Assembly: GCA_008973525.1 (NCBI GenBank)
Contig: WACJ01000123.1
Coordinates: forward strand, 682,001 to 746,000
DNA from: Stenopsyche tienmushanensis
Lineage: Eukaryota > Arthropoda > Insecta > Trichoptera > Stenopsychidae
Reading direction: 5' to 3'
DNA: 64,000 nt
In this document: piece after piece, positions 7,954 through 43,017 of the stretch
Layout of the letters: every line of letters starts with the position of its first letter
Position numbering within the stretch: the stretch's first letter is position 1
Program-made: the position numbers and the translations under genes
The notes under the pieces: model-generated
Database searches by the model: none
Told to the model about the DNA's origin: nothing
Seen by the model: only the letters and a program-made list of their open reading frames with translations

Positions 7954-8397
7954 TTAATGCTTGTTCTTGTTGAAGAGGCGAGTGGATATTTGATTTCTTC
8001 TAGGCCAAAAGCCAGGTCTTCTATGAGCAGAGCGTTTGAAGATTGCATCAATCACTTCTTTCGAGGCGTCTATAAAATCTTTGCCCTTTTTAAATAGTTC
8101 TTTTCCTGCCTCTATAGCTGGTTTCACTTTGTCTATTATTTCTTTTGCTTTATCCACAATTGGAGCTACGACACTTTTAACTTTATCCACAACATTTTTA
8201 ATACCCTCGCCCTGAAATATTAAATTTGAATTTAAACATTTTGCAAATACATAAATAAATATCAAAATTATTTAATTGAGATGACTTACGATCTTTTTGA
8301 ATATGTTTCTCCTCCGAATTGGTCGATTCGGTGGTTTCATAGACGCAGCCAACGTGGATGCCATGAGCACCAACGAAATCGTTAGATAGAACTTCAT
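7954..8397 (-). CDS. Secreted cationic peptide precursor, subfamily A (8 kb gene)
   Basis: Exon 1 is 8,290-8,397 and exon 2 is 7,954-8,211. The 78-nt GT-AG intron is phase 0, and the precursor is 121 residues. Residues 1-19 form a signal peptide (MKFYLTISLVLMASTLAAS). A short Pro-rich spacer ends in three Arg; exon 1 then closes with NIFKKI. Exon 2 starts GEGIKNVV and continues as a Lys/Val/Ile/Asp amphipathic helix, followed by a basic tail with RRPGFWPRR and a Lys/Asn-rich end. It is the longest member of the cluster. The RRR NIFKKI G pattern recalls the N-terminus of cecropin-type peptides, so a processed, membrane-active secreted peptide is plausible; this is inference. An AATAAA lies about 50 nt past the stop. 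Confidence 0.85.
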
Positions 8398-8440
8398 TTT
8401 TTTTTATTTGGTCACTACTTTCGTATCAAATTGGATTACG

Positions 8441-8554
8441 AATGAGCTAAATATATTCTGTGCGATAATTTATACATTCACATTTGTTTTTCAGTCAAAT
8501 ATAATTTACAACGCAATGTACATATTTGTTGTTTTACAAGTGCGAACATATTGC
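8441..8554 (-). promoter_or_regulatory. Promoter of the 8 kb peptide gene
   Basis: Read on the minus strand, TATAAA (8,469-8,474) lies about 31 bp upstream of the TCATTC initiator (A at 8,443), which is 46 nt before the ATG. The distal block with TACATATTT and ACAAGTG occupies 8,516-8,554. Confidence 0.7.
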
Positions 8555-8724
8555 TAGCCATTTAAGGGACTCAAGACGAATACAACATCGAATAAATACA
8601 TTTAATAAAATGTGATTGTGTAATGCGCTTTTTTAATAGTATATAGGTAATCGCCATAGTTGACTATTTATAGGACGAACGGTTTGAAGTTGATAGTTTA
8701 TCTATAGTTTTATCAATCAAGAAT

Positions 8725-8935
8725 CTATATTGGAAAGGATGGACATCCTCCCGCATGCCATCGAAGGCGAGACAGATTTGATCACACATCAACCGCCGAT
8801 TCCACCCCTTCATTCTTGGCAAATCCTGGCGAATTTCCTATTGGAGAGGATCTGCGACTGGGACATGAATAAATTAACTTTCACGGTTTCGAAGTCTCAA
8901 GATCTCATCCTAAAGGGTCGTTTTTAGCAGCCCCC
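8725..8935. repeat. LTR-like fragment
   Basis: A GGATGGACATCCTCCCGCATGCC block matches 15,205-15,230 and resembles the Leu-PBS LTR family. The 65-codon ORF across it has no recognisable domain. Confidence 0.4.
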
Positions 8936-8989
8936 CCGACCTTGAATGGATGGGAGTTTTGTCAAGTTCGTGGAATAAACCCCATATTT

Positions 8990-9356
8990 GAGGATCAAGT
9001 TGGACGTTGGAAATTCGATCATAAACGCTAACCACGATGGACATGTCGGGACATAACGTCCAATTGCGAGGCGCTCATTCAAAGTGTTAGCGATCTGAAA
9101 GGCGGACTAATTGGACGCACAAACTTTGTAGCCACTCCCTCATATTTTATGGCACATAGGACCTTTTGCGTAAGTTATGCGGAGAAATGCATTCCCGGGG
9201 CTTTCTATAATCTCCATGATCATAGAAGCTTCCTCTAGACACTAATTTACATAGGTGGTTCTCACCAAATGAGGTTGTGAGCGAGAATGGACTTCCCATC
9301 GCTCATAAAACTTATATATCTATTTTACAATATATATATATAAATAGCTCGGGTCA
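8990..9356 (+). mobile_element. R1-like 3' end, copy 1
   Basis: A decayed C-terminal block (SDLKGG, then F.ATPS, then YAEKCIPGAFYNL) is followed by the family's 3' tail, which ends in a TATATA-rich run near 9,335. Confidence 0.65.
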
Positions 9357-9640
9357 GTGGAGGGTCCCCATGTATCTTTGCGTTTCTGGATTACTGAAGG
9401 TCCCATTTCCTCACAGGGTACGGGCGGTTTAGATCTTCGCTTTTCAGGTTTGTACTATTCTCGATATCGAAGTGTCCATGCAGAGATCTATTCATGGGCA
9501 CAGACCATATTCTGTGGACATGTTCGGTCATGGCGTTTGATCGCGAGGTGCTCATTCGTCGCGTCAGCGGTCCGAAAGGCGGACCGGTTGAGCACCTAAG
9601 CCTTATGCCTACTCTCTCCTCTTTTAGGATTTATTTTGAT
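9357..9640 (+). mobile_element. R1-like 3' end, copy 2
   Basis: A second adjacent fragment of the same family keeps DHILWTCS (around 9,500) and R.VSGPKGGPV. The DHILWTC block is the zinc-knuckle-adjacent part of R1-clade C-termini. It sits directly behind copy 1. Confidence 0.65.
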
Positions 9641-9779
9641 ATTAGTGGCAAGAATAAAAAGGTGGTTCATGCTAAAATTAATCGTGAGCAAGACTAAACT
9701 TCCTCCTATCCATAAAATTTATAAACATATTTATTTTACTCATTTATGTTTCATCTATGGATATAAATTGGCACAAAAA

Positions 9780-10215
9780 CTCCACTTTATTGATCTAAAA
9801 CATCGCCAAACACTTGATTGAAACATCTTCACGATGTTGTTTTTATTTCATTGTGAGCAAACGCGTAACTCATCTTGCGCACAGCTTTTTCATGTACAAA
9901 TTTTCAGTCAATATGCGATATACGGCACTTTTTAAAATGCCTAACATATCTGCTAGCTTTTGCCCTTTAATAGTCATCCAATACTATTTTCTTCATTATT
10001 TCTGGCGTTGGTAGACCATTGCGGTATTTGTTTTGGCAGCTTGTACGGCCTCATTTAAATTCTGCCACCCAATATTTTACGCTTGTAAGCGAAGGAGTAA
10101 ACTGCCTCTGAGTAGAATTTAGCTCGGTTTTGATATTAGTTGGACTGAGATTTTTCAAATAAATATATTGTATCACATAATGATGACCTTTTTTTTTCGT
10201 GTTTACAAATGCACT
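9780..10215 (-). mobile_element. mariner transposase relic
   Basis: The N-terminal part (about 10,051-10,190) reads YVIQYIYLK, LSPTNIK and VKYWVAEFK. The downstream part (about 9,790-10,010) reads LKSAVYRILTENL and MKKLCARW with several frame breaks. This is a mariner-family DNA-binding region and a dead copy. Confidence 0.75.
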
Positions 10216-10597
10216 GAGAATGTTCTCTATTGTTTTAAACAATAATCGCAATATTTGCGTCAGTTTCAGTACTTCTGAGACCACTTGGGAATGTCTTGAA
10301 AACACAAGTATATTTGTATTTTGTCTCATGTTTTTAATCAAAAGTTTGAACCTAATTGGTGATATTCCCATAAAAGTCTTTCTTAAAAGACACGACAATT
10401 GCATTCAAGTATTTTTAGTGCTTTTATTGCAGATCAACAAAACATTAAAATCAACTTTAATTCTAAATTCTAATTATTAATATGATAACTATTGTTATGA
10501 TCTATAACGCAAATATAATTTAGGATTTTATTATAAATTAATAATTACATTTACTTTAAACAGTTTAGGTTTAAAAATACACTGTGTATTATTCAGT

Positions 10598-10630
10598 GTA
10601 CATATTTGCTACTTTACAAGTGTAAAAAAA
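10598..10630 (-). promoter_or_regulatory. Orphan copy of the peptide-gene upstream motif
   Basis: The sequence GTGTACATATTTGCTACTTTACAAGTG matches the distal promoter motif of the subfamily A genes, but no signal-peptide exon lies in the expected place to its left. A mariner relic occupies that side. It probably marks a lost gene copy. Confidence 0.5.
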
Positions 10631-11590
10631 TAAATAACATATTGAACATAATGACATAGTAATGACAACAAGACATACTTTAATACGAAACAGCGAAGGT
10701 AAACCATTTCATTTAATTTGAATCCGCAAGGATACATCGGGAATGAACCATTGTGGATGGATTTTTTTTTTCAGTAAAATCTATATATTTATCTCAAGTA
10801 GTGTCTTACTAACTTCTAAAAATGTCTCTCACTCTTTAAAATAATCAGAAAGCCTTTAAAAAAATCCCAAAGGCATCGTTTGATTCGTTTCTTGATTCTC
10901 AATTAAAATACATTTGGTATGAATAGAACATTTTTCTTAAAATATTTTCAGCCTAATCTTTAAAATATATTTTCAGAACGTTGCCCAAAGACAGACATAA
11001 AATACAACAGACGAACACAATGAAACTGTAATTGAAATATCACGATTAGAATAAATATTAGGGCGTACCACATGAATGTTCGAAATTCATAGGAGAGCAT
11101 CAAAATATTTTCCATTAGTATCAATAATATTTTTTCGTTAGAAACTTACTGACTGGACTGTACCGAGGGCTCTTTTAGTGGACGCCATAGCCTCACACAA
11201 TGTCCTTGGTCACCAGATTGAACAGAAAATTTTCGTGAACACCATCAATGTGAGTGATAAAATTCCTTCCTGCTGAGACACGTACTAAAACTCACATAAT
11301 TCCCGATTTACCGACAAATTATTTATTTCCGTCGCTGCAGATGAATATTTATATACTATAATACTTTGATGTGATTCGTAATTATATTACGGAGGAATAC
11401 CAAAATTCTGAGCCCCGTATCTATTATATTTCATATCGATATTCCCATTATTAGAGTCAAGGTGTAGTAAATACATCACCGGTAGGGAAAGGTTAATATA
11501 ACAATTTGATAAACATATATGTACTGTATATATTTATGCATAGATTAGACAGTTACTGCGCCTAGGCGTCATCTAAGCTCGCCAATTAGT
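10631..11590. other. Intergenic, no gene recognised
   Basis: This is AT-rich DNA with no coding signal. Confidence 0.5.
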
Positions 11591-12420
11591 AGTTACGTCA
11601 CTGTTTCCAAGCGTCCAGATTTTGGCGGGAATGTCTCGATTTGGCAGGCTTCATCGTGCTGGTGAGGTGAACGATTTCTGTTAGATAAAAATTTCAATCC
11701 CGAAGTTTTCGGGAAATCCCGGGATTCGAGAGCACCTAAAACTATCCGGGATCCCGGGGTTGGATTCCCTACTCGAGAGTGTGGTGGGTCTCCTATCTTC
11801 GTTTTTATGCCCTCACTCCTATGAAAAACGATCCAAAAATTCACACACAGCGGTCAAGTGATTTTGGTGGTGCTCCCATGTAAGTATTCTGAGCACCCAT
11901 CTCACACACAACTCGCCATAATCAAGTTTTTTCGACACAATATCATCAAGGAGACTTCGAAAAATGTCAGGAAATTCTTCATGAAGGTTGTCTAGCGTCA
12001 CGTAGTGATAATTTGGCACTTGTTATTCAATTTTGTGTATAAGTTTGTCAGAAATCATTGATGTACTCCCATTGCTTGCCTCGTTGTGAGTATCAGTACG
12101 GCCTTCTCTAAACAACCTAACTCACTTTGTGACACGTTGTCGACTCATCACATTACTACCATAGACTTCTATGAGCTTTCAATTATTTTTTGCGGTGGTA
12201 TTGCTCTCCAAAATAAAAAAAACGGTGTGGACCTCACACGGACTGGAAGTGGTGGGAGCGCGCGACAACCTTTCCGTCGGAAGAATTTACCGTGACTGAA
12301 CAAAATGGCCGATAAACACTCAGAATCAATTAAACTGATCGTTAAGATCCTGGTGAACCACATTTGAAACAAAAAACATCCCTCGGCCAAAGGAAGCAAT
12401 CTTACTTTTTAGATGACCCT
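11591..12420 (-). mobile_element. mariner-family relic (multiple pieces)
   Basis: A minus-strand frame at 11,819-12,019 carries TLDNLHEEFPDIFRSLLDDI followed by LDYGELCVRWV, the linker region of a mariner clade. Related DNA at 12,050-12,420 recurs at about 18.96, 41.8-42.4, 43.2 and 62.9 kb, including a common flank ending in a direct CCTTGTA block. The copy is non-functional. Confidence 0.65.
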
Positions 12421-12772
12421 TGTAGTAATGTGTTGGCAAGCCGTTTTAATAATGCTACTTGTGTTATACTATTTTGACACAAATGTCGTGTGCTTTTTAA
12501 ATATTTACACAGTAATTGCATAATGAAAGATTGAATTTTACAGAAACACTTGCTAAAAATGGATCATGTTTGCCATCAACAAATTCTGCTAATTTATTTC
12601 TGATAACAATGATTTTTTGTTTGCCTTCTCATTATTTTATCAAATGGAAAGAATATGAATTGTGGACTAGAAAATCGATGTTTGATTTTGAAGGTATATA
12701 TCAAATGGTATTGGAAAAAGAGTGCCAAATAAAAAAAGTCGATTCAAAGTGTGTTTATTTAATTACAGTACA

Positions 12773-13130
12773 TTAAAGATTGGCAAATATTGGTAGAAAA
12801 TAATTTCGTCTTCTTTGTTTCCATTTATTCCATGGACGCTTTGGTTTTAATCGTATAAATCTTTTACCAAAAAACCTTCTCTTAATTTTATTTTTAACGG
12901 TATCAATAGCGTCTTGAAATTCCTCACTTGAAATGGACATCGTCACTGATTTAGTTGGGCCGATCTAAAATATAATTTAAAGCTTAAAATTGGAAAAAAA
13001 CATCTTCGATTGCTATCAGAAATGCTCAGAAAATACTCACATCTTTAGAGATTAAAGCCTTCTTCTTCTTGGCTGACGCGGTCAAAGTTGAAATCGAAAG
13101 AAGAATCAATAGTATCAGAAGTAATTTCAT
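12773..13130 (-). CDS. Secreted peptide precursor, subfamily B (12.8 kb gene)
   Basis: Exon 1 is 13,041-13,130 and exon 2 is 12,773-12,964. The 76-nt phase-0 intron has a GTGAGT donor, and the precursor is 93 residues. The first 20 residues are a Leu-rich signal peptide; a Lys-rich spacer (KKKKALISKD) ends exon 1. Exon 2 starts IGPTKSV, runs through a charged helix (EEFQDAIDTVKNKIKRR), reaches FFGKR, and ends in a basic aromatic tail with RPWNKW and RRRNYF. A Gly followed by Lys-Arg is the classical substrate for dibasic cleavage and C-terminal amidation, so a shorter amidated helix may be released. I chose the ATG at 13,130 because an upstream in-frame Met would lie beyond the TATA box. An AATAAA lies 14-19 nt past the stop. 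Confidence 0.8.
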
Positions 13131-13187
13131 AATGATTTTCACCACTTTTTTAAACAAAATGAAATCGTTGAAAGGACTTAACGCTGG

Positions 13188-13195
13188 TTTATATA
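13188..13195 (-). promoter_or_regulatory. TATA box of the 12.8 kb gene
   Basis: The sequence GGAGTATATAAACC on the minus strand is about 60 nt before the ATG. It is shared, with small changes, with the other two subfamily B genes. Confidence 0.65.
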
Positions 13196-13299
13196 CTCCG
13201 TTGTTAATCCAACTAATCAAATGTTTGTATTGTGGGTAATTTATGTCCAAGCTTCAATTTTATTTAGAAACGAATGCAAAAAGTAAAGATTATGTTCCA

Positions 13300-13860
13300 T
13301 CTTTGATTAATGGCATGTTTTCAGATTTATATTTCTTTAATATAGGAAAAACAAAATAAAAGTTTGTATTCAGTCCCGAGTGTTTAGATATAATAGATAG
13401 CTGCTTATTCGGTATGTACACGAGAGAAAGTGCACCCAGCTGCGAGAATTTCGATGACGAACCACTTTTTAATCATTGTTCAAAGTTCAACCAGAAGAAG
13501 GATTGGAAATAAGATACATTCTCTCAATTGATAATCAAAACCCCCCTAATACTTAGGTTTTATATCCTTGCTGAAAGTGGAAAGAATGATAAACTTATTA
13601 TAAATTATTTATAATATTTGATTAACATAGAATAGATAAAAAATCCATCGGATAGAATGCTTTTTGATCCTGTAATTGAAGAAAGAATGCGAGATGTAGC
13701 ATCATATTTTGAGGGATAGTTCAATGATTATACTTCAAGTAAAACCCAAGTGTTTGTCCAAAAGGCCCAAATGTTTCGTGAAAGTCTAAAAGTCGAGAAA
13801 TAATCTACTGGAAAAGTGATGTCTACGGTATTTTGGGACTCAAAACTTTCGAGTCGCTAT
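13300..13860. other. Intergenic, no gene recognised
   Basis: I see only short ORFs and no repeat family I can name. Confidence 0.5.
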
Positions 13861-13995
13861 GTAACTGGATAGATGGGATGGAGATAAACGGGCGTCCAAT
13901 AAAAAGTCTCGTCCTAGATAACTTTTTTATTTATCACGAGAGAGGGAGATCTGGTCGCAGAAAGGACGTCCTCTCGCACCCAAGGATATCTGTGG
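13861..13995 (-). mobile_element. LTR fragment, reverse orientation
   Basis: The blocks TCTCGTCCTAGATAACTTTT, GAGAGAGGGAGATCTGG and GACGTCCTCTCGCACCCAAGG align with the antisense of the Leu-PBS LTR family. Confidence 0.55.
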
Positions 13996-14089
13996 TGAGG
14001 TGATAGTTTAATTATGATACATGTGCAAACTCGGAGATATTTTTTAGGTATGCAGAGATAATCATTAAAAATATCCGGATAGATTATCT

Positions 14090-14560
14090 TTCTTTAGCAG
14101 GTATACAAGCCAGTACGAGGAAGGGGGAGGGAGATTTAGACTCAACTTTATGGATTTTATTTTGCTTTCTTCTGCTCTTCGAACTGACTTTGACCGACCC
14201 TGGGTTACAACCCTGTTAGACTCCACAATGCCCGCCCATAAAATCCCAGAGAGGGGGGGAACCCTACGCTCGTGAGCAACGGTTGAACCCCTGGGCAAAT
14301 GATGTAGAGTAGAGATCCTGCGCAAGCAGCATTATTGGTTAGTTGGAGTCATCAAACGCTACTGGGAGAGCCCAGCTAACATGAGTTGAGCACGCCATTT
14401 ACCCTGTGCTACGTACCCGTATAGAGGTGTGTGAAACTGCTGATTACATAAGTTGGTGGAATCTGTGCAAAAGGATTTAGGCTGCTCAAACGGCGACTTG
14501 TCTCGGTGGTTAGATACTACAAGTGAATTATCTGTGATCCCGTTTGATAGCATCCCGAAT
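14090..14560 (+). repeat. Repeat X, forward copy 1
   Basis: This is strongly similar to 21,855-22,310 in the same orientation, and to reversed pieces at about 30.56-30.87, 33.16-33.60 and 46.38-46.90 kb. Diagnostic blocks are ACTCCACAATGCCC, GTAGAG followed by CCTGCGCAAGCAGC, and CGGCGACTTGTCTCGGTGG. I recognise no protein domain; the family is unclassified. Confidence 0.7.
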
Positions 14561-14888
14561 TTTATAATTACCTACGTACTTCTTCAACGCAGCATGTTTG
14601 CATGTGGTCTGAAGCTGGTCTTCCTGCGGGAACTTCGCCTTCCTCTAGAGATCGCGGAGCAAGAGGGGTGGAAGACAAATCTCCTTCTTTCTGAAATAGT
14701 GACGTCTTCTGTCTTTATACGAATACATTGTACACGTCTAGATTACGTATTAGACATGTTGGAAGTGGGGAGTCACCGGATAGCCTTGGCCGCGGGAAGA
14801 TATCCTTTTCGCAGTCTTATAACTGCAACAACTCAAACTGTAAATAAACAATAATAATTAAAACGAGAGTATTTGTGTCAGTTTTTCC

Positions 14889-15200
14889 AACGAAAATTTT
14901 ATATAAAACTTCAGTTTTTTGATTGGGCACTACTTTCATAACAAATTGAATTCCGAATGAGCTAATTTATATTCTTGTAACAAATTTATACGTATAAATT
15001 TGTTTTTTTAAGTCAAACATAATTTACAGCCCAATGTACATATTTATTGTTTTACAAGTGCGAAAATATTGCTAACCATTTAAGAGACTCAAAACAAATT
15101 CAACGCATGAAAAAGTACATTTAATAAAATATGACTTTTTTCCATAAGTTGACTATTTATGGGATAAGTTGATAGTTTATCGACCAAGAATCTAGTTTGG
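14889..15200 (-). pseudogene. Subfamily A remnant: promoter plus start of exon 1
   Basis: The plus strand carries the motif TGTACATATTT...TTTTACAAGTG (15,033-15,061) and CGAATGAGCTAA (14,955), as in the 8 kb gene promoter. At 14,912-14,914 the expected ATG reads CTG. About 25 further nucleotides of the signal-peptide exon follow (KFYIKFSL-like) before homology stops near 14,889. The gene has lost its start codon and everything downstream of the first nine codons. Confidence 0.75.
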
Positions 15201-15493: not shown

Positions 15494-15847
15494 TTAAAGA
15501 TCGGCAAATCTAGGTTGAAAATAATTTCGTCTGCGTTGATCCCATTTATTCCACGGATGCTTTGGCAATAATCGTAAAGATCTTTTTCCAGGAATCCTTC
15601 TGCCAACTGCATCTTTAATATCATCCCAAGCATCTTTCACCGTACTTGCAATAGATCTCGCCGCCGATTTAACTCTGTCAATCTAAAATACGATTTAATG
15701 TTTAAAACTAGAAACATCCTAATCGATTGACATAATGGGTATTCAACAAATACTAACCACTTCTGAGAGGAATTCTTGCCTTTGTCTGACTGCCACAACC
15801 AAACTTGAAATCGAGAGTACTATCAAAAGCGTAAGAAGTAATCTCAT
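15494..15847 (-). CDS. Secreted peptide precursor, subfamily B (15.5 kb gene)
   Basis: Exon 1 is 15,758-15,847 and exon 2 is 15,494-15,682. The 75-nt phase-0 intron has a GTTAGT donor, and the precursor is 92 residues. The signal peptide is MRLLLTLLIVLSISSLVVAV, followed by RQRQEFLSEV. Exon 2 begins IDRVKSAARSIASTVKDAWD (amphipathic), then GRRIPGKR, then LPKHPWNKW and QRRRNYFQPRFADL. It is clearly paralogous to the 12.8 kb gene: PWNKW, RRRNYF and the A-(D/N)-L end are the same. PGKR again provides a dibasic/amidation site. The helical part is less basic than in subfamily A. AATAAA lies about 11-16 nt past the stop. The function is unknown; a processed secreted peptide is inferred. Confidence 0.82.
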
Positions 15848-16555: not shown

Positions 16556-16558
16556 TAT

Positions 16559-18439: not shown

Positions 18440-18543
18440 CATATCACACATCAATATATATACATATACACCAACACTCGATTTACAAAGAAACACAATT
18501 TGTATGTACATATTTATAGTATCACAAGTGCAGAAGAATTGCT
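18440..18543 (-). promoter_or_regulatory. Orphan peptide-gene promoter remnant
   Basis: CATCAATATATATACAT followed by TGTACATATTTATAGTATCACAAGTG aligns with the promoter of the 21.2 kb gene. No exon 1 follows to the left, so this is probably a deleted gene copy. Confidence 0.55.
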
Positions 18544-18774
18544 GGCTATATTTAATAACTTGAGTGACTGCTACAAAATTATATTGAGTCGGGTGCATCT
18601 GTGTATATATAATTTTAATTTATATTTTATTTGTTCGCACTTTTCTGCTGGACTATAAATTACATAGATATTGCAATCGATAAATGGCAATTATAGAAGT
18701 TGTAATGAAATATCAAAACAAATTCAGAGGAATGACGAAATCAATAACGAATGTGATAGTATTATATTATATAT

Positions 18775-21162: not shown

Positions 21163-21489
21163 TCATATAAGTCTCCATTTGAATCTATTGGTCCTGGTTC
21201 CTGGTCCTGGTCCTGGTCCTGGTCTTGGATGCTTGGATCCACCTATTCCAATTACGTCAAGTATAACGTCTTTAACTCTGTTCAAAACCTTTTTAATGCC
21301 CTTTCCCTGAAATGTAAATTTGAATTGAAATATTATGCAAAAACAATCGAAAATCAACCAAGGCTAACTAAAATTACTTACAATCTTCTTGAATATGTTT
21401 CGCCTTTGAAATGGACGCGTTGGTGGATTATAGGCCGCAATCAGTGTAGATGCAATGAGCACTAACGAAATTGTAAGATAAAACCTCAT
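21163..21489 (-). CDS. Secreted peptide precursor, subfamily A with Pro-Gly tail (21.2 kb gene)
   Basis: Exon 1 is 21,382-21,489 and exon 2 is 21,163-21,306. The 75-nt phase-0 intron has a GTAAGT donor, and the precursor is 83 residues. The signal peptide is MRFYLTISLVLIASTLIAA, followed by a Pro-rich spacer and QRRNIFKKI at the exon end. Exon 2 begins GKGIKKVLNRVKDVILDVIG, a compact cationic amphipathic helix. It is followed by a Ser/Lys/His linker, a PGPGPGPG repeat and a basic end with FKWRLI. The Pro-Gly repeat comes from a short DNA repeat (GGTCCT/GGTCCTGGTCCT on the plus strand). The helix is well conserved with other A members while the tail is unique. Confidence 0.85.
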
Positions 21490-21534: not shown

Positions 21535-21643
21535 ATGAGCTATGACCATCTTAGTGCATCAATATATACATCTGCTTGTGTATTTACTAACTAAGAGAAT
21601 TTATATATACATATTTATTTTTGCACAAGTGCTACAATATTTC
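21535..21643 (-). promoter_or_regulatory. Promoter of the 21.2 kb gene
   Basis: TATATA (21,563-21,568) is 32 bp upstream of the A in AGCTCATTT (A at 21,536). The upstream motif TACATATTTATTTTTGCACAAGTGC lies at 21,608-21,632. Confidence 0.7.
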
Positions 21644-23514: not shown

Positions 23515-23829
23515 CTATTTTGGATAAATTCCACCTCCTCCACCTCCTCCACCTCCTCCACTTCCTCCACTTCCTTCATTTTTTCCTATTATTTTTTCCA
23601 CAACTTCTTTTAAATATTCACCAAATATTTCTAAGCCGTTTTTAAAGCACTTTCCCTGAAATGTAAGATTAGATTGAAATATTTTGTAAAAAAAATTAAA
23701 AATCAACAAAGATCAACTAAAACAACTTACAATGCATCGTCTTCGAATTGGACGCGACGGGGGTATATTATAGGCCGCAATTAGTGTAGATGCAATGAGC
23801 ACTAACAAAATTGTAAGATAAAACCTCAT
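23515..23829 (-). CDS. Secreted peptide precursor, subfamily A with Cys pair and Gly tail (23.5 kb gene)
   Basis: Exon 1 is 23,731-23,829 and exon 2 is 23,515-23,655. The 75-nt phase-0 intron has a GTAAGT donor, and the precursor is 79 residues. The signal peptide is almost identical to the 21.2 kb gene. The spacer ends PIRRR, but the usual NIFKKI is shortened to Cys-Ile, and exon 2 opens GKCF. Two Cys therefore flank the splice junction four residues apart, which would allow a small disulfide loop or a dimer. A helix follows (GLEIFGEYLKEVVEKIIGKN), less basic than its relatives. The end is a Gly tract with Ser, caused by a GGA/GGT triplet repeat. Length variation in that tract would be expected between individuals. 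Confidence 0.82.
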
Positions 23830-23871: not shown

Positions 23872-23979
23872 GAAATAAGCTATAATTATGTTAGCACATC
23901 AATATATACATCTATTTGTGTGCTTACAGCCTAAGAGAATTACGTACATATTTGTTTTTGCACAAGTGCGGTAATATTT
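23872..23979 (-). promoter_or_regulatory. Promoter of the 23.5 kb gene
   Basis: TATATA at about 23,904-23,909 lies about 32 bp upstream of a degenerate initiator (AGCTTATTT). The distal motif TACATATTTGTTTTTGCACAAGTGC is at 23,946-23,970. Confidence 0.65.
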
Positions 23980-27281: not shown

Positions 27282-27316
27282 AGTATATATTTACTGTTTT
27301 ACAAGTGTAAAAAAAG
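27282..27316 (-). promoter_or_regulatory. Orphan copy of the peptide-gene upstream motif
   Basis: GTATATATTTACTGTTTTACAAGTG matches the distal promoter motif. TATA-like sequence is present to the left but no exon, so this is probably a lost gene copy. Confidence 0.45.
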
Positions 27317-28014: not shown

Positions 28015-28380
28015 TCACTTTTTTTCTTTTTTCTTTTTTATTGCGTCAACCACAGTTATCACAGCTGAAGCCACTCTAAGAGCTGGAACGACTTTCGTCG
28101 CAACTGGAAGAATTGAAGCGACGGCTTTGCCTACGGTTTTTATGACTGGAACAACAACCTTTTTAACTGCATTCACTCCAGATTTAACAGCCTTTCCCTG
28201 AAATATAAAATTAGTTTTAAAGTATTGCAGGCGAAATTAAAAAACCAAAATATATTAATTAGAATCACACACGATGTTATCAATTATGCCTCTTTTTTTT
28301 ATTTGGCGATACGGTGTTGTAAAGGCCGAAACTAATGCGAAAGTATAGATCACTAATGAAATTGTTAGATACAACCTCAT
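28015..28380 (-). CDS. Secreted strongly cationic peptide precursor, subfamily A (28 kb gene)
   Basis: Exon 1 is 28,273-28,380 and exon 2 is 28,015-28,197. The 75-nt phase-0 intron has a GTGTGT donor, weaker than in its relatives, and the precursor is 96 residues. The signal peptide is MRLYLTISLVIYTFALVSA. The spacer ends IKKR, followed by GIIDNI. Exon 2 starts GKAVKSGVNAVKKVVVPVIK and continues as a long Val/Ala/Ile-rich helix with periodic Lys and Pro (PVATKVVPAL). It ends VVDAIKKKKEKK. The C-terminal DAIKK recalls the end of the subfamily C peptides. It is the most hydrophobic and cationic member, consistent with membrane activity (inference). The splice donor should be confirmed. Confidence 0.78.
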
Positions 28381-31847: not shown

Positions 31848-32098
31848 CTACTTTTTTATTGCGTCAATCAATTTCGAAAAAATATCTCCCTGAAATATAA
31901 AATTGGAATAATTAATGCCATTAATCAAAAATTCAAAATCAAAATTAATTAATTAAATTCTCATACTATTTTTTTTAATAAAGCAGCCTTGCCTTCAAGC
32001 TCCTTGTCTTCAGGCTCTTCTTCTTCACACGAATTTGAGCAGGCCGCAACTAGTGCAGGTGCAAATACCACAAACAAAAATATCAGATAAAGCTTCAT
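31848..32098 (-). CDS. Short secreted peptide precursor, subfamily C (31.8 kb gene)
   Basis: Exon 1 is 31,967-32,098 and exon 2 is 31,848-31,889. The 77-nt phase-0 intron has a GTATGA donor, and the precursor is only 57 residues. The signal peptide is MKLYLIFLFVVFAPALVAA. An acidic spacer with two Cys (CSNSC then EEEEPEDKELEG) leads to KAALLKKI at the exon end. Exon 2 encodes just 13 residues, GDIFSKLIDAIKK. The C-terminal segment across the junction is a cationic amphipathic helix, while the acidic spacer looks like a neutralising pro-region. That arrangement is common in small helical venom and antimicrobial peptide precursors; function here is inferred. No dibasic site precedes the helix, so the cleavage site is unclear. 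Its near-copy lies at 34,748-34,997. Confidence 0.78.
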
Positions 32099-33605: not shown

Positions 33606-33609
33606 CAAA

Positions 33610-34747: not shown

Positions 34748-34997
34748 CTACTTTTTTAGTATGTCGACCAATTTTGATAAAAGATCTCCCTGAAATATAA
34801 TATTGGAGTTAAAATAGAACGCAAATACATTCAAAATCAATAAATAAATTTAAATCTCATACAACATCTTTTACAAAATCAGCCTTCTTGTCTTCCGGCT
34901 TCTTTTCTTCAGGCTTTGCGCCTCCACACGGTTTTCCACAGGCCGCAACTAATGCAGATGCAAAGAGCACTAACAAAAATGTCAGATAGAGCTTCAT
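34748..34997 (-). CDS. Short secreted peptide precursor, subfamily C (34.7 kb gene)
   Basis: Exon 1 is 34,863-34,997 and exon 2 is 34,748-34,789. The 73-nt phase-0 intron has a GTATGA donor, and the precursor is 58 residues. The signal peptide is MKLYLTFLLVLFASALVAA. A Cys-containing spacer (CGKPCGG) is followed by a Lys/Glu/Pro repeat (KPEEKKPEDKK) instead of the strongly acidic stretch of its twin. Exon 1 ends ADFVKDV, and exon 2 encodes GDLLSKLVDILKK. Both Cys and the last-helix pattern are kept relative to the 31.8 kb gene, while the spacer charge has changed. This suggests selection on the helix and looser constraint on the spacer (inference). Confidence 0.8.
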
Positions 34998-35182: not shown

Positions 35183-35204
35183 GCAATAGATGCACCTGTT
35201 TATA
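35183..35204. promoter_or_regulatory. Shared distal element (copy 3)
   Basis: TGCAATAGATGCACCTGTTTATA lies about 140-160 bp upstream of the predicted start site. Confidence 0.55.
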
Positions 35205-35904: not shown

Positions 35905-36175
35905 TATAGCATGGGCGAATTATCATACCCATGCAATGATTGCGTGCAATGCTCTTGATTTGGTTAGATTTAATTGACCAGATTAACATCGACACCTTTC
36001 GTCTCTCTTTAGGTGCAATGTGTTATTTTAACAGCGCCATCTTCTGTGGCGCTGCCGACTCATTGCGTCTACAATATCAACCGATCGCTTTTTACGTGTG
36101 CACCGTTGCCGGTTGGATGGTGATACACAGGAGGCGAGAGTCGCGAGAAATCACTGGTGTCAGAAGTGAAATAAA
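35905..36175 (+). mobile_element. LTR fragment with primer binding site
   Basis: The LTR blocks TGTGTTATTTTAACAGCGCCATC and GTGCACCGTTGCCGGTTGGATGG are followed by ACTGGTGTCAGAAGTGAAAT (36,149-36,168). The latter is a tRNA-Leu-like primer site, so this is the 5' side of an LTR element whose body is gone. Confidence 0.65.
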
Positions 36176-36269
36176 GCAGATCTCCCTTTTTACATTAAAA
36201 AAAAGTGAAGCATAGTAGCGAGGGCACTCGCGGAATAGAGTTCCCGGGCGGCATCACACTCCCACGGGT

Positions 36270-36475
36270 TCGTCGATATGGCCGCACTAGCGCGCGGGTC
36301 CGTTCTGCCTTCGAGTCGTTATGTAGCTAGGCGGATGGGATAGTGGTGGACGCGCGTCGGACAGAATGACTCTCTTCTTTAGACAACTTCTTTATTAGCC
36401 ACGATAGAGAGATCTAGCTGCGGGAAGGATGTTCTCCCGAAGGTCAAGGCTAACCGACGATTATTGATCATAACC
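36270..36475 (-). mobile_element. LTR fragment, reverse orientation
   Basis: GCACTAGCGCGCGGGTCCGTTCT, GACTCTCTTCTTTAGACAAC and AGGTCAAGGCTAACCGACGA are antisense to the 16.6 kb solo LTR. It faces the forward piece at 35.9-36.2 kb. Confidence 0.65.
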
Positions 36476-36905
36476 AAGCTTTGTTCATTATCCATCGTCA
36501 ATTGTTTTATGATTTTTTTTTTGTTTTCCCGTTAATTTGTTTGTTTTTATTACATAGGATGGGAGTCCTCGGATTGTAAAGTTCCTGAGGTACATTCCGC
36601 TTTATTACGCGCGGGTTCGTTTAATATCGGAGCGTGGAAGAGTCTATAGAGGAGAGAGAAAATAATTACTTTATGAGAAAATTCAACGTGTTTTGGCTAA
36701 GATATATATTTCGCGCTGAGAAAAGGATTCCAGCTGTGTAACTCCTGGGGAACTAACAGTAAGAAAACGTCTCCCCGTGGCTAAGACTTTCGGTCGATTC
36801 TTTGTCAATCAACCAAAGAAAAATGTGTTAAATATAAAGTAAATGGGATTAGTGCAGAAAAATAATCTTTATTTAATAAAATACACAATCAGATAATGAA
36901 AATAT

Positions 36906-37255
36906 TTATTTTCTTATAAATGGCAATGGAAATATACGACGAGGGTCACCTTTTTTTACCAAGTCTCGACCGGCTCTTGGTATTGGAAATTTTTTACCTA
37001 TATCATCGATAAGATCTCGAAATGATTCTTCTAAATTATCTTCGACCGACTTTAGTCTATCTCTAAGCTTGTCTTTTATCGTATCAATCTGAAAAATATA
37101 CGAGTATATGAAATATTATGGCGTTTTTGTTGATTTAACATAGGTATTCGTTAAGTACTCACGGCATCTTTAATGATATTTCTTTTTTGGCGCTCGACCG
37201 ATGTGACTAACGTTGAAATCGAAAGTAATATTATGAACGTAAGAAGTAATTTCAT
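36906..37255 (-). CDS. Secreted peptide precursor, subfamily B (36.9 kb gene)
   Basis: Exon 1 is 37,163-37,255 and exon 2 is 36,906-37,088. The 74-nt phase-0 intron has a GTGAGT donor, and the precursor is 91 residues. The signal peptide is MKLLLTFIILLSISTLVTS. The spacer VERQKR is followed by NIIKDA at the exon end; this KR-N-I-I-K arrangement parallels RRR-N-I-F-K-K in subfamily A and ties the two subfamilies together. Exon 2 is a long highly charged helix (IDTIKDKLRDRLKSVEDNLE, then SFRDLIDDIGKK), then FPIPRAGRD, and a basic end DPRRIFPLPFIRK. It lacks the PWNKW/RRRNYF tail of the other two B genes. It is nearly charge-balanced rather than strongly cationic. Confidence 0.82.
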
Positions 37256-37308
37256 GTTGATTTTCAGCACTTTCAAACGAACTTGGCTCGAACAGCTCAG
37301 CATCTCAT

Positions 37309-37316
37309 TATATACT
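37309..37316 (-). promoter_or_regulatory. TATA box of the 36.9 kb gene
   Basis: ATGGAGTATATAATGAG on the minus strand aligns with the GGAGTATATAA block of the two other subfamily B genes. Confidence 0.6.
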
Positions 37317-37319
37317 CCA

Positions 37320-37790
37320 TTGGCCGTACAATTAATGAAATGAATGCATTAAACATATTTCATGAATATGCAAATATTTAATTTTCGCAAGTGTTAGAAT
37401 AGTATCAAATGTTTCCTTAGGTGTTTTCCTGAGTTATTATACCATTTTTCATATAAAATTTCAGCTTTGTACTCTTAATATGCGTATGTATTAGGTTATC
37501 CCGAAAGAAATCAATTTATTTTTCAAATCAAAACTTATTTTTCTTTAACTTTTTTACATATATTAATATGAAATATAATTGCTTTTATTATTAACACCTA
37601 GCTTCTATCTCTTCTGCAAGTTTTTATCTCCTTCTTATTTAAATTAGACAGTTCAGAATCGAAATTTTATCTTAAATTATTTGTTAATTAATCTATAAAA
37701 TATAATCGATGAATCGTACAAAAAAAAAAATATAAAGAGAAGTTTTCTTCGATGTCTCTGGACACTTCCACTCCTTCCACTCTTCCACTC
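37320..37790. other. AT-rich intergenic
   Basis: I see no gene signal here. Confidence 0.45.
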
Positions 37791-37799
37791 CTGATGATC

Positions 37800-38235
37800 G
37801 ACGGAAGCGAGATTAAATTTTCGAGATCCATCCGATATTTGGTGGTGGAAATTGACGATAAACTTCACTTTACAATACCTAGCCAAGTTGAAAAATAGCA
37901 TCAGATGCCCAAAAACAAAATCGAAGAAGGCTTCACAACGAAGTAGTGCACTCATTGGTGTTGTAGAGTGTCGGAAGATCTTTACAACAAGAACTATCCT
38001 GGTATTGACTGCTATACCGTCAATAGAACTGCTCGCCCAAGAGAGATAGGGAGTCCAAAAAGGAGCACTGAAAAAATTTGCCAAGGAAAACACCATAGTG
38101 GTGTGGCAGTCCCGATGGTACAGCTCCACAAAATATCATTGGACATATAAGTTAATACTAAATTTGGAAACGTGGATAGGCAAAAAACATGGCCAAATGT
38201 GTTACCAACTGACCCAGGTCCTTTTCGGGCATAAC
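37800..38235 (+). mobile_element. R1-like element fragment (copy of 60.1 kb)
   Basis: LAKLKNSIRCPK, then VVECRKIFTTRTILVLTA, then LLAQER. Frameshifts follow, then LNLETWIGKKHGQM and LTQVLFGH. This is the region between the RT and the C-terminal knuckle of an R1-type ORF2. The same segment is at 60,105-60,480. Confidence 0.7.
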
Positions 38236-38515
38236 TGCTTCGGAGGAGGGACGACCTCCTGCAACCAAGGCTAACCGACGATTCTCCGCCTCCTGCGCGT
38301 CACTCCCCAACCGGCAACGGTGCACGCGCAAGAAGCAATCCGTCGGTTTGCAAGTGCAATGTATCCGTAGGGCCACAAGAGATAGCGCTGTTAAAATAAC
38401 ACATTGCTCCTGAAGAGAAACGGAAGATGTCACTGTCAATCTGGCGAATTAAATCTGCTCAGCTCAACAGCGCTACTACGTGCTGATGGTAAATTACTCA
38501 TGCTAAACCAGCAGG
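38236..38515 (-). mobile_element. LTR fragment, reverse orientation
   Basis: This is antisense to the Leu-PBS LTR family: CCAAGGCTAACCGACGATTC, CCGGCAACGGTGCACGCGC and GTTAAAATAACACATTGC. It interrupts the R1-like sequence, whose C-terminal end resumes at about 38,525. Confidence 0.75.
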
Positions 38516-38519
38516 CATT

Positions 38520-38880
38520 GCACACATGACACCGCACACATGACATTCGTCTTTCCAGCATGGAGCGTTGAAAGGAATGCTCTCCGTGAGAAGTTGGGAG
38601 CAAATACGCTTAATGATACTAAGACATGGAATGCGTGGTACAAATATATAAAGTGCGTTATGCAGCAGAAGGAGGACGTAGAAGAAGAATATGCCCTATG
38701 GAACCATCTACCATCGAGCTGACACCCATGAGCTGAGTTGCCCATAACGGAAGAGCCCAGGAAGGATACATCGCAACCACTCCAGCGCAATACTTAACTA
38801 GTAGCTGGGATGCAGCAAAAGAGGAGGGGAGTTTTAGTGGATAAAAATCCCACACTACCACCAAAATGGTAGTTTCTTTA
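38520..38880 (+). mobile_element. R1-like C-terminus and 3' tail
   Basis: It starts HMTFVFPAWSVERNALREKL, then WNAWYKYIKCVMQQKED, with a stop at about 38,721. The 3' tail has a GTGGA/CCCAC hairpin (38,837-38,853). It is probably the continuation of the element split by the LTR. Confidence 0.7.
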
Positions 38881-38889
38881 GAAGATTTC

Positions 38890-39720
38890 CCCTTTTACAC
38901 GTCGTAGATTTGTTTTAATATTCTGTTTGTGATCAATAAAATATTGATTTTGTGTTGAAGGGCTCTGAAAATAAATCGTCAATTGTTTAAAGGGAGCTGT
39001 TCACTGGGGTCAGAAGGAGTACATTTACAAATGTCAATCACTTTTGTTTGTTAAATGTTTTTAATATGTATTAAAAGCGGGCACAATAGCACAACTACTC
39101 GAAGCTTTGGGCTTTAATATAAAACGTATGGTTATATTTCGGTCGTAAATATTCTGTTTATATTTACGCTGCCGGCATAAAAGCCTCGGCATAATACTTA
39201 AGAAGTCTTTATTCGGAAACAAAATTTTGCCAATAGAAGTCGAAAGTTTCTTAGTAGACGCCCAGAGATTTTTTGATGTATCCGACTAAAATGCCCAAAA
39301 ACTTAGCGAATAAATTTAGAAAGTTTTCGCAAAGGGCAGGGGGTCGAAAGACACAAAAACGCGTTTATTGTTTGCTTGAAAGCGTCACAATTGTTTATTA
39401 CTTGATTATACTTTGATGATTTAAATAAAAGCTTAAGGTGCTATAGTCATTGCTCAAAATTGTGGCATTATTTTGCTATTATATATTAGGGATACCGGAT
39501 GAAAATTTCGTTTTTTGTCATCATTGTTTTTAATGATCAGTTAGGTTTTGTTCATAATGGAGAGAAATAAATTAGTTAATAGTAGCTGGATTAAAGACAA
39601 TGAATGACCTCTCATAGTCCGGGAGCTTATTCTGTCTATTTAGCATTATGAAGGTAACAATCTTAATTCAAAACGTGCTCATATAATTGATCCTATCGTT
39701 TTTTGGATGAAATGTCTATA
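38890..39720. other. AT-rich intergenic
   Basis: I see no gene or named repeat. Confidence 0.45.
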
Positions 39721-39776
39721 TGTAAAACAATAATTAATCATTAGAACACAAATTTCAAACTTATTTTATTACCATT

Positions 39777-39811
39777 GACACTTGTGCAAACCGAAATATG
39801 TACGTTGTACA
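39777..39811 (+). promoter_or_regulatory. Upstream motif of the 39.9 kb gene
   Basis: CACTTGTGCAAACCGAAATATGTA is the reverse complement of the TACATATTT...TGCACAAGTG motif of the minus-strand genes. It is correctly oriented for this plus-strand gene. A TCAGTT initiator-like sequence follows at about 39,848. Confidence 0.6.
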
Positions 39812-39894
39812 TGATATTGACTATGTAAAGGCATGTAAAAATAAATTCAGTTTCATTTCTTATTGGAAAGAGTCGAAAAAGCAGTGCTATCAAA

Positions 39895-40256
39895 ATGAGA
39901 TTACATCTAACACTAATACTAATACTTTCGATCGCCACTTTGGCTGCATCGTCGCCTTTTAGAAGAATGCCGTTCAGAAGGAGAAATATTTTCAAAAAGA
40001 TTGTAAGTATTTATGTATCAAATTCTATCTAGGATAAAGATTTTTGTCATCGTTCTCTATATTATTATAAATTTGTATTCTTGTCATTATGTTTTAGGGT
40101 GAAGGAATAAAAAACTTTGTGACTCCAATTGTAGACAAGGTAAAAGAGATAGTCACTCCAATTGTAGATAAAATAAAAGACGTCGGAGAACAGGTGGGTG
40201 AAGGATATGTTAATTTTGTAAGAAATATTATGAAAGGAAAAGTATACGGGATTTAG
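39895..40256 (+). CDS. Secreted cationic peptide precursor, subfamily A (39.9 kb, plus strand)
   Basis: Exon 1 is 39,895-40,002 and exon 2 is 40,098-40,256. The 95-nt phase-0 intron has a GTAAGT donor, and the precursor is 88 residues. The signal peptide is MRLHLTLILILSIATLAAS, followed by a basic spacer with MPFRRR and NIFKKI. Exon 2 begins GEGIKNF and then carries two tandem 11-residue units (VTPIVDKVKEI, VTPIVDKIKDV) encoded by a 33-bp DNA duplication. A further helix and a short basic end (MKGKVYGI) follow. It is the only plus-strand member, explained by the inverted duplication with 42,629-43,017. An indel near 40,240 changes the frame, and it stops nine or so residues earlier than its twin. 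Confidence 0.83.
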
Positions 40257-40259
40257 GTC

Positions 40260-40500
40260 TGGAACATATTTCAATTGGTCATTGATTCTAAAATAGTTGT
40301 AGTGAAAATTTTTGCAGTGTTATAAACATCTTGACAATCCCTGAATAATTTTTTTTTTATTTGCTTTTTTATTTAAAGATTTATTTTTCTAACGTTTCCA
40401 AAATATTGCTATGATAAGCTTAATAAGTCGTAGTAAAAATGTTTGCAATATTATGTGAATGTTAACAATTTCTGAATAAAAGCCAATATTTTTTAATTTG
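40260..40500 (+). other. 3' flank with internal duplication and poly(A) signal
   Basis: TAGTGAAAATTTTTGCA.T.TTAT (about 40,305) recurs as TAGTAAAAATGTTTGCAATATTATG (about 40,432). AATAAA occurs at about 40,477. This looks like a duplicated 3' UTR segment. Confidence 0.45.
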
Positions 40501-40589
40501 TTTTATTTAAAATAAATACATATATATTACAAATTAAGACTAGATAATATAAAAAATAAAATAGATATAAATATATACGTTTTATGGGT

Positions 40590-40985
40590 GAGGGAAAATC
40601 TAGTCTCGCTCGCGATCTCATTTGGTATGAGCCACCAATGTAAATTAGCCTCTCGGGGGGTTTTCGTGAACATGGAGGTCGTTGAAAGCTTCGGGGATGC
40701 ATTTCTCCCCATAACATACACCAAAAGCCTTAAATGTCTCAAAAGATGAGGGAGTGGCCACAAGGTTTGTGTATCCAACCGGTCCGCCTTTCAGATCGCA
40801 TGTTTGCATGACAGCAATAAGGCCAAGTTTTTGTATCAATTCATAACCATGGATGAAAAACGTATCCATCACTTCACATCTGAGACAAAGGAACATGAAG
40901 TTCCTACACTGAACCGAGCTGTTTAATGGTCCCGCTATTCGGGAGCATGCCAGCTCGCTCAATAAAAGTACACAGTAAAGTGCAA
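40590..40985 (-). mobile_element. R1-like 3' end, reverse orientation
   Basis: The minus strand reads DLKGGPVGYTNLVATPSSFE, then CYGEKCIPEAFNDLHVHENPPRG and a stop near 40,645, followed by the family 3' tail. Upstream are YELIQKLGLI-like decayed parts. Confidence 0.7.
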
Positions 40986-41003
40986 AACCTGAATTTAATA
41001 TCC

Positions 41004-41253
41004 ATGTCCGGGAGGTTGTCCCTCCTGCAGTCAGACCTCTCTCTCTCTGTCTTTCGTGTGGAATAAATAGTTATTTAGAGAAGAGAGCCTTTCCATTCGA
41101 CGCCCTTCGTGTTCCCATCCATTAGTCCAGCAACATCACAGCCCGACAGAAGAACGGACCCGTGCGTTAGCGCGACCATCCCGACGTGCACGTGGAGTCG
41201 GGGAGCCGCCTGGGGACTCTGCCCCCGAGAGTGTCCACACCATAAACGTTACA
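41004..41253 (+). mobile_element. LTR fragment, 3' half
   Basis: This matches the second half of the 16.6 kb solo LTR, from GGAGGTTGTCCCTCCTGCAG to AAACGTTACA. It retains AATAAATA (about 41,062) and an extra GC-rich segment just before its end. Confidence 0.75.
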
Positions 41254-41279
41254 GCAGCATAAATTAGTAAGATAGATAC

Positions 41280-41565
41280 ATATATGGTTTTAATGGGTGG
41301 GGGAACGTCGTTTGCGACCTCATTTGGCGTGAGTTACCTATGTAATTAACCTCTGGGGGGGGGGATTGTACAGATCATAGAAAGCCCCGGGTACGCATTT
41401 ATTCCCGAAAATACCGTAAAATGCCCTAAAAGAGCACAGAGCAGCCGCCAGGTCTGTGTGTCCAATCGGTCCGCTGACATGACGAATGAGCGCCTCGCGA
41501 TCAGACGTCATACCCAAACATATCTACAGAACGATTACGAACTCTCATTGCAAAATGAAGTTATC
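41280..41565 (-). mobile_element. R1-like 3' end, reverse orientation
   Basis: The reverse complement contains the same tail and a decayed C-terminal block (ATPSS/F.A.F region). It is related to the 40.6 kb copy. Confidence 0.6.
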
Positions 41566-41608
41566 CGAAGAAGACTAGTCGAATGGGTTACCTAGGTTAG
41601 GTTATTGC

Positions 41609-41645
41609 TTAAACATTGGGCCGGCTGAGTCAGCCCAATGTTTAA
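41609..41645. repeat. 13-bp perfect hairpin
   Basis: TTAAACATTGGGC and GCCCAATGTTTAA are separated by 11 nt. It adjoins mariner-derived DNA. Confidence 0.55.
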
Positions 41646-41799
41646 ACACGGCCAAGTCTATTTGTGCCCGTAGCAGGCGCCTGTTTTGCCATCCTCTTGT
41701 TATGGCCCTGCTAAATTGATTGTTGTTTTCATCAAACATTATTGTGTGATTTATTTTGCCACCTTTTTTCCCACTGCCATTTGCCACCTTTGGCCATGC

Positions 41800-42385
41800 A
41801 AGATTATATATGATCATCCGTTTTTTGACTTTGCAGAACAATACTGTCGTGTGCGAATATCCATCGGAAGCTCGTGGAAGTTTATGGTAGTGATATGATG
41901 AAGCGACAGCATGTCGCAAAGTAGGTTAGATTTTTCAGAGAAGACCGTACTGATACTCGTGACGGAATGAGAGACCATCAGTGATTTCTGACGAACTTGT
42001 GCAAATATTGAAGAAGTGCGAAATAGCGGTCATGTGACGCTTGACGACGCTCATGTATAATTTCCTGACATTTCTCGAAGTCTCCTCGGTGATATTGTGT
42101 CGGAAAAACTTGATTATAAGAAGTTGTGTGTAAGATGGATGCCCAGAATGTATATACGGGGGAGCTTTTTTGGACTCTATCGATGACGGCGCGGTTATCA
42201 CATTGATGGAAGGTAGCGGGAACGCGCGACAACCTCTCCATCTGAAGAATTTACCGTAACTGAACAAAATGGCCGACAAACACGCAAGACTAAACAAATT
42301 GACCGTTAGGATCCCTCCTACAGGCCAGGGCTACTAACTTCTAAATAAATAAAAATTCCCCGCCCTCAAGAGCCCTTGTAACCTT
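41800..42385 (+). mobile_element. mariner-family relic
   Basis: The plus strand, with frame breaks, reads EVYGSD, then RFFREDRTDTRD, then RPSVISDELVQILK, then TLDDAH and EKLDYKKLC. This is the N-terminal half of a mariner clade. It is followed by the shared terminal flank (CCCGCCCTCAAGAGCCCTTG). Confidence 0.65.
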
Positions 42386-42628
42386 TTTTTTCTGGATGGT
42401 TTTCGTATTGAAGACGTCATTGTCTCGTAGAGGAATTCGTTGCACTCTTTAATATTTTGGAAGAGAAGATCCATTGATTTGTAATTCTAAAAATATTTCT
42501 GATTAATCGCACTCAAATAAAATATTTTTTATAATAATAAGGCAAATTTAAAAAATAATTTGGATTTTATTCATTAATCGTTAATATTTACATAATATTA
42601 TAAACATTTTCACTACAACTAATCAAAA

Positions 42629-43017
42629 TCAATGACCAATAGAAATATGATCCAGACCTAGCCCCAGTTTTCCCGGCTTAAAAATATCCTTTATTAGATT
42701 AACTTGTCCTTCAATCAGATCACCTACAACTTCTTTTGCCTTGTCTACAATTGGAGTGACTACCTCTTTTATCTTGTCTACAATTGGAGTCACAACGTTT
42801 TTTATTCCTTGACCCTAAAATACAATGACAAGAATACAAATTTATAATGATATAGAGAACGATGACAAAAATCTTTATCCTAGATAGAATTTGATACATA
42901 AATACTTACAATCTTTTTGAAAATATTTCTCCTTCTGAACGGCATCCTTCTAAAAGGTGATGATGCAGCCAAAGTGGCGATCGAAAGTATTAGTATTAGT
43001 GTTAAATGTAATCTCAT
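42629..43017 (-). CDS. Secreted cationic peptide precursor, subfamily A (42.6 kb gene)
   Basis: Exon 1 is 42,910-43,017 and exon 2 is 42,629-42,814. The 95-nt phase-0 intron has a GTAAGT donor, and the precursor is 97 residues. Exon 1 encodes the same protein as the 39.9 kb gene. Exon 2 begins GQGIKNVVTPIVDK and holds the same pair of 11-residue units (TPIVDKIKEVV, TPIVDKAKEVV), then GDLIEGQVNLIKDIFKPGK and a non-basic end (LGLDHISIGH) absent from its twin. Amino-acid differences are concentrated in exon 2 and its end, although exon 1 and the intron are almost unchanged. Confidence 0.85.

Follow-up and report, generated by a model that had tools for sequence, protein, structure and literature searches.

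What kind of gene family is formed by the eleven small two-exon genes on contig WACJ01000123.1 (C123) of the caddisfly Stenopsyche tienmushanensis, and what might its products do? The cluster extends exactly from 7954 to 43017, about 35 kilobases (kb), of a 64,000-nucleotide (nt) window, the whole stretch of DNA that was analysed (C123:682001-746000); positions are those of the window except where C123 is named. The genome comprises 451,459,302 bases in 549 contigs, and the published assembly is of 451.5 megabases (Mb; PMC6302954). The host belongs to the suborder Annulipalpia and builds fixed retreats and nets (PMC6302954 for the building habit). The cluster is a real gene family of predicted secreted, mostly cationic small peptides. 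The chance that most of these are membrane-active defence peptides, whose Lys/Arg-rich amphipathic helices would insert into microbial membranes, is judged from their sequences to be about even.

An earlier examination of the letters alone, called here the sequence-only reading, had described eleven intact genes, each with a signal exon, a short phase-0 GT-AG intron and a second exon, and all eleven were recovered. A structure scan returned nine, A1 and C2 were read directly, and exact exon matching placed the whole set. All lie on the minus strand except A5, which is on the plus strand and is the inverted partner of A6. The A genes, given with exon 1, intron length, exon 2 and protein length in amino acids (aa), are A1 (7954..8397; 8290-8397, 78 nt, 7954-8211; 121 aa), A2 (21163..21489; 21382-21489, 75 nt, 21163-21306; 83 aa), A3 (23515..23829; 23731-23829, 75 nt, 23515-23655; 79 aa), A4 (28015..28380; 28273-28380, 75 nt, 28015-28197; 96 aa), A5 (39895..40256; 39895-40002, 95 nt, 40098-40256; 88 aa) and A6 (42629..43017; 42910-43017, 95 nt, 42629-42814; 97 aa). 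The B genes are B1 (31848..32098; 31967-32098, 77 nt, 31848-31889; 57 aa) and B2 (34748..34997; 34863-34997, 73 nt, 34748-34789; 58 aa), both with a second exon of 13 codons that ends in KK before the stop. The C genes are C1 (12773..13130; 13041-13130, 76 nt, 12773-12964; 93 aa), C2 (15494..15847; 15758-15847, 75 nt, 15494-15682; 92 aa) and C3 (36906..37255; 37163-37255, 74 nt, 36906-37088; 91 aa). In all eleven, exon 1 is open, of signal type and a multiple of three in length, so that the intron (73-95 nt, with GT...AG ends) is in phase 0, and exon 2 is open. The predicted proteins range from 57 to 121 aa, and the genes are spaced kilobases apart.

Two results place the genes beyond chance. 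The first exons match one another in tblastn searches, down to E 5e-14. In addition, a rule-based scan found nine matches in the 44-kb cluster region, all of them genuine genes (A1 and C2 were missed), and none in 220 kb of flanking DNA; the rule, composed after the genes were known, called for K or R at residue 2, uncharged residues 3-18, a phase-0 GT-AG intron and a second exon of at least 12 aa. When all 22 exons were searched with tblastn against C123:602001-866000 (264 kb, E<=0.05), copies were confined to the cluster, bar one match at E 0.043 that is interrupted by a stop. DNA searches of the whole 451-Mb genome returned at least three matches for A1 exon 1, two for A6, five for the 5' part of A3, four for C2 and four for A4. 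Among the matches listed, all fell in C123:682441-725200, which is the cluster only, and those of C2 fell at the places of C1, C2 and C3 only. At the level of DNA searches, the family thus apparently occupies a single locus. Scanning the window with Rfam and for tRNA genes gave no matches.

The sequence-only reading had divided the genes into three subfamilies with related first exons, and this division stands in part. First exons are clearly related by tblastn within the A and B genes together and within the C genes, and upstream regions are likewise common within each of these two sets. Between C and the rest, the sole tblastn link has E 0.047, and neither upstream model hits the other set; the kinship of C with A and B therefore rests on layout. 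A tree built from upstream region, exon 1 and intron gives good support to the pairs A5/A6, A2/A3 and B1/B2 and places A4 beside B1 and B2 (support 95/99), apart from the other A genes. The second exons of B1 and B2 (31848-31889 and 34748-34789) align with the first 13 codons of A4 exon 2 (28015-28197) and then end; B may thus derive from an A4-like gene by shortening.

Duplication within the cluster has been inverted in one case (A5/A6) and tandem in several. The two broken copies reported earlier differ in kind. One is clear, a minus-strand copy of A1 at about 130..600 (limits approximate) with interrupted frames; it lies in a duplicated segment of 881 nt, 84% identical to the A1 locus, near the left end of the window. 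The other, at 14887..15134 on the minus strand, is a truncated copy, of which the upstream region and the very start of exon 1 are all that is left. Eleven frames are intact, beside one copy that is broken and one that is truncated, a balance that speaks for the defence reading.

A shared upstream element, CACTTGT-N8-AAATAT[G/A]TA, accompanies many of these genes. In C123:602001-866000, where a spacing of 7 to 10 was allowed, ten copies occur, all within 711-43133 and all with a spacing of exactly 8 bases; the rest of the 264 kb has none, and neither have seven other stretches of the genome (57 kb). Five of the eleven intact genes carry it (A1 at 8542, A2 at 21631, A3 at 23968, A5 at 39779 and A6 at 43133), as does the broken A1 copy (at 711). 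Instead of the three orphan promoters of the sequence-only reading, four copies without a gene were found. The copy at 15060 belongs to the truncated copy. The copy at 18530 lies in an upstream region at 18449..18575 (minus strand; nhmmer E 1.2e-9), and the copies at 10622 and 27307 read CACTTGT-N8-AAATATGTA (10599..10622, minus strand) and CACTTGT-N8-AAATATATA (27284..27307, minus strand); no gene was seen downstream of these three. In 7 of the 11 genes, the shorter CACTTG lies no more than 250 nt from the start codon, with 0.11 expected per gene. TATA-like boxes lie at -78/-79 in A2, A3, A4, B1 and B2; the box of A1 is at -77 and those of C1-C3 are between -59 and -66, and no box was seen in 100 nt for A5 or A6. 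The element would act as a regulatory switch, and its halves may be an E-box and a forkhead-like site. The upstream model of the A/B set also has one weak 50-nt match outside the cluster (E 0.0018), at -7348 to -7299 relative to the window.

For the four closest pairs, the mature coding part was compared with 170 nt of upstream sequence plus the intron (Fisher test), and in three of them the mature part is the more diverged. Differing sites number 43/207 in the mature part against 17/265 in upstream and intron for A5/A6 (p 5e-6), 81/177 against 40/241 for A2/A3 (p 1e-10) and 32/114 against 33/243 for B1/B2 (p 0.002). The 3' flanks stay similar in A2/A3 (0.80 of aligned columns, with 94 gap columns) and B1/B2 (0.87), so in these two pairs the mature part contrasts with the sequence on either side. 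In A5/A6, exon 1 shows four synonymous and no non-synonymous changes, while exon 2 has a non-synonymous divergence (dN) of 0.33 and a synonymous divergence (dS) of 0.32. The best reading of these sequences is a lineage-specific birth-and-death family, in which the cluster would gain and lose genes through local duplication. Constraint, gene conversion or both would keep upstream region, signal exon and intron alike as the mature part changes fast. Such a pattern is what one would expect if the peptides serve host defence or are otherwise antagonistic.

The predicted peptides agree in part with a membrane-active role. The proteins have a hydrophobic N-terminus, and the net charge of the mature part, counted from residue 20, is positive in ten of eleven (+2 to +17). 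The second exons had been called Lys-rich; most mature parts are indeed cationic, but unevenly so, since the ratio of K+R to D+E in exon 2 lies between 17:4 (C1) and 8:8 (A6), and Arg exceeds Lys in C2. Similarly, the description of the peptides as amphipathic applies to 7 of the 11 second exons, those of A1, A3, A4, A5, A6, B1 and B2, which have a mean helical moment above that of composition-matched shuffles (p<=0.05); A2 does so on its best window alone (p 0.022). All six A genes have two or three basic residues (RRR, QRR or KKR) immediately ahead of N/G/C-I; IFKKI occurs at this step in four of the six, and the helical run that follows continues across the intron. Each gene is predicted to be spliced from two exons to give a small secreted peptide. 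The signal peptide would come off in the secretory pathway, and a convertase would probably cut after the basic residues; the helix thereby released, whose coding sequence starts with the last codons of exon 1 and runs on through exon 2, would attach to anionic membranes. The tails of A2 (21163-21306) and A3 (23515-23655) are coded by simple sequence (PGPGPGPG and poly-Gly), so microsatellite change may feed the C-terminal divergence of these two genes.

Several observations weigh against membrane-active defence as the common role. B1 has a net negative mature part by the same count, and the second exons of C1, C2 and C3, with A2 on the mean, are no more amphipathic than shuffles. The Gly run that forms the A3 tail and the Pro-Gly repeats of the A2 tail would be odd in a pure membrane helix. 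Sites of the NF-kB type are usual in immune-induced peptide genes, and a search for three such patterns gave no hit within 250 nt of the start codon in any of the eleven genes; within 600 nt, GGGRAYYYYY occurs in 3/11 and GGGRNNYYCC in 1/11, with 0.06 expected per gene for each. The pair C1/C2 shows no excess of mature divergence (69/219 against 60/237, p 0.15). The difference between A5 and A6 starts inside exon 2 and runs on into the 3' flank, so the end point of a conversion or duplication tract would account for it as well as selection. In addition, the NG86 dN/dS of exon 2, based on few sites, is 1.02 in A5/A6, 1.92 in A2/A3, 0.78 in B1/B2 and 0.84 in C1/C2, and values near 1 are also compatible with relaxed constraint. 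These ratios, with the broken copy, the truncated copy and the four gene-less elements, would suit a relaxed and decaying family of old immune or secretory genes whose disused mature parts drift. Eleven open frames, splice sites in 11/11, the exclusively synonymous changes in exon 1 of A5/A6 and the TATA position held at -78/-79 in five A/B genes all argue otherwise, and decay is considered very improbable.

The profile searches called for by the sequence-only reading gave no match to a named family. Pfam hmmscan of ten proteins (all but B1) at E<=1, Pfam searches at E<=10 with A4 (whole and exon 2), A6 and B1, and NCBIfam returned only matches under the curated cut-offs. Against a set of 5.8 billion proteins, whose sources include nr and UniRef, the alignment of all eleven proteins gave 1949 candidates, none at E<=0.1, and A4 alone gave seven, none at E<=10; this search needs shared five-residue words, so distant relatives could be missed. 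In the Protein Data Bank (PDB), the family alignment matched designed helical bundles (the best a helical barrel, E 5e-6) and unrelated helices, which were rejected as relatives, and A4 exon 2 matched at E 0.4 and worse. Membership among the moricins, to which A4 had looked similar, was rejected, as neither A4 nor its exon 2 has a Pfam moricin match at E<=10; Pfam is taken here to hold a moricin model. Six peptide fragments from the cluster had no occurrence in the 5.39 million papers searched. Among the matches listed for caddisfly, antimicrobial and venom literature, no such family appeared by title or abstract start, and the main text of the S. tienmushanensis genome paper does not contain the word 'antimicrobial' (PMC6302954). 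The cluster thus offers eleven peptides, a compact set, without a natural relative in these searches; as far as searched, their sequence appears new and their kind already known.

Around the genes, repeats at 10054-10404, 12234-12350, 42198-42314 and 43238-43642 are presumably mariner-like, and one such repeat sits immediately downstream of the orphan element at 10622. The nearest recognised conserved gene, about 12 kb to the left of the window, consists of intron-rich exons on the minus strand (C123:661445-670264, window -20555 to -11736) that we take to be armadillo/beta-catenin, and it may serve as a synteny anchor. Elsewhere in the genome, a stretch of 51% GC, the first 10,000 bases of a 55-kb contig (L028:1-10000, equal to C3:1-10000), holds histone H2A- and H1-like frames beside retroelement-like frames.

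How, then, do these peptides compare with known systems? Cecropins are small, secreted, cationic, helical and encoded by multigene families, and the caddisfly peptides are of the same general type. Membership was rejected, as Pfam gave no cecropin match for ten of the proteins at E<=1 or for A4, A6 and B1 at E<=10; the basic residues before the mature part are a further difference, and the absence of an NF-kB-type site in 250 nt may be another. The cecropin-type likeness of the sequence-only reading thus remains an analogy, in an order from which cecropins are known (PMC10607850).

Another comparison, with a caddisfly, is with Limnephilus lunatus, in which ten small multicopy peptide (SMP) genes of 49-91 aa form one cluster and nine of the ten products were found in silk by proteomics (PMC11092239). 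These too are clustered multicopy genes of a caddisfly for secreted peptides of similar length, and the host of the present cluster is likewise a silk-spinning retreat builder. The main rival to membrane-active defence is accordingly that the products are small multicopy peptides of underwater silk, passing from the larval silk gland into thread or net, where basic residues would bridge H-fibroin phosphoserine blocks or coat the fibre. The Gly tail of A3 and the Pro-Gly tail of A2 are silk-like in look. Eight of the ten L. lunatus peptides (SMPA) exceed 20% Tyr, as against 0-5.0% in the mature parts of all eleven genes here; SMPA and the YEC peptides are Tyr-rich (PMC11092239), and no sequence match to the peptides of the present cluster was found in the protein set whose sources include nr and UniRef. 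SMPB1, with 18.4% Gly and 15.8% Lys, is not unlike some of the cluster peptides and is nearer to them than SMPA or YEC (PMC11092239). As the two SMPB peptides are not Tyr-led, the Tyr test is silent for SMPB, and composition leaves room for an SMPB-like role. In P. conspersa, of the same suborder as S. tienmushanensis, only one remotely similar peptide is reported (PMC11092239). On this balance a structural silk role is possible but doubtful.

A combination of defence and silk can also be conceived, although it is rather improbable. The family would be a caddisfly-specific arsenal governed by a single rigid upstream switch; the labial (silk) gland would secrete its members together into underwater silk, and they would arm nets and retreats against microbes or prey; an arms race would drive diversification, with promoter, signal exon and intron fixed and the mature exon replaced. 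If the peptides are silk-borne, they would bear on the published doubt over the retention of antimicrobial peptides in underwater silk (PMC9432349).

A further alternative is that a salivary, accessory or defensive gland secretes the peptides as effectors or toxin-like agents, directed against prey or rivals or used in reproduction. We know of no injecting apparatus in this insect, which speaks against such a role, and nothing found favours the venom analogy of the sequence-only reading over other secretion in a retreat-building caddisfly. Ant venom-peptide genes do share the two-exon plan, the clusters, the duplicates and the pseudogenes (PMC12465672, PMC10800049). In the type-1 ectatotoxin genes of Rhytidoponera, exon 1 encodes signal, propeptide and first mature residues and exon 2 the rest (PMC12465672), a split that would fit the caddisfly exon maps if the mature start is placed by the basic residues. 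Introns are 73-95 nt here and 630-2488 nt in the type-1 ant genes quoted (PMC12465672). No Pro/Glu-rich propeptide of the kind known from toxins of ants, wasps and bees (PMC10591384) was seen in the A or C genes, and where ant genes have this stretch, the A genes have basic residues. Promoters are alike within subfamilies here, whereas they are the least conserved part of the tandem myrmicitoxin genes of Tetramorium (PMC10800049). COX1 on contig C509, read with the invertebrate mitochondrial code, places the genome in Stenopsyche: its protein has 100% identity to a UniRef cluster of that label, and the next among the listed hits is Dolophilodes at 83%. The host is a trichopteran, not a hymenopteran, so that an ant or sawfly as source was rejected, and no protein match was found. 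A gland-effector role is regarded as unlikely, even with the parallel in plan, clustering and fast mature region offered by the Hessian fly (PMC2955719).

The sequence-only reading knew of no described family with this exact layout, yet the plan of the Hessian fly genes for small secreted salivary gland proteins (SSSGP-1) had been published (PMC2955719), and that of the type-1 ectatotoxins is similar (PMC12465672). The SSSGP-1 genes form a tandem and inverted cluster with a conserved promoter, a signal exon, an intron at the signal/mature boundary and a diversified mature region (PMC2955719), and the caddisfly cluster resembles them in each of these respects; mature divergence in excess of that of promoter and intron was found in three of the four closest pairs, C1/C2 (p 0.15) being the other. 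The Hessian fly belongs to another insect order, and no sequence match with the caddisfly peptides was found. Intergenic distances are 0.2-1 kb in SSSGP-1 (PMC2955719) and kilobases here, and the many predicted basic amphipathic helices of the caddisfly peptides are a further difference. Membership is claimed in none of the SSSGP-1, ant venom or silk SMP families. A cassette of conserved promoter, signal exon and intron joined to a fast mature exon has been described for gall-midge saliva (PMC2955719) and in part for ant venom (PMC12465672, PMC10800049), and the cluster of S. tienmushanensis adds a caddisfly case to this convergent insect pattern.

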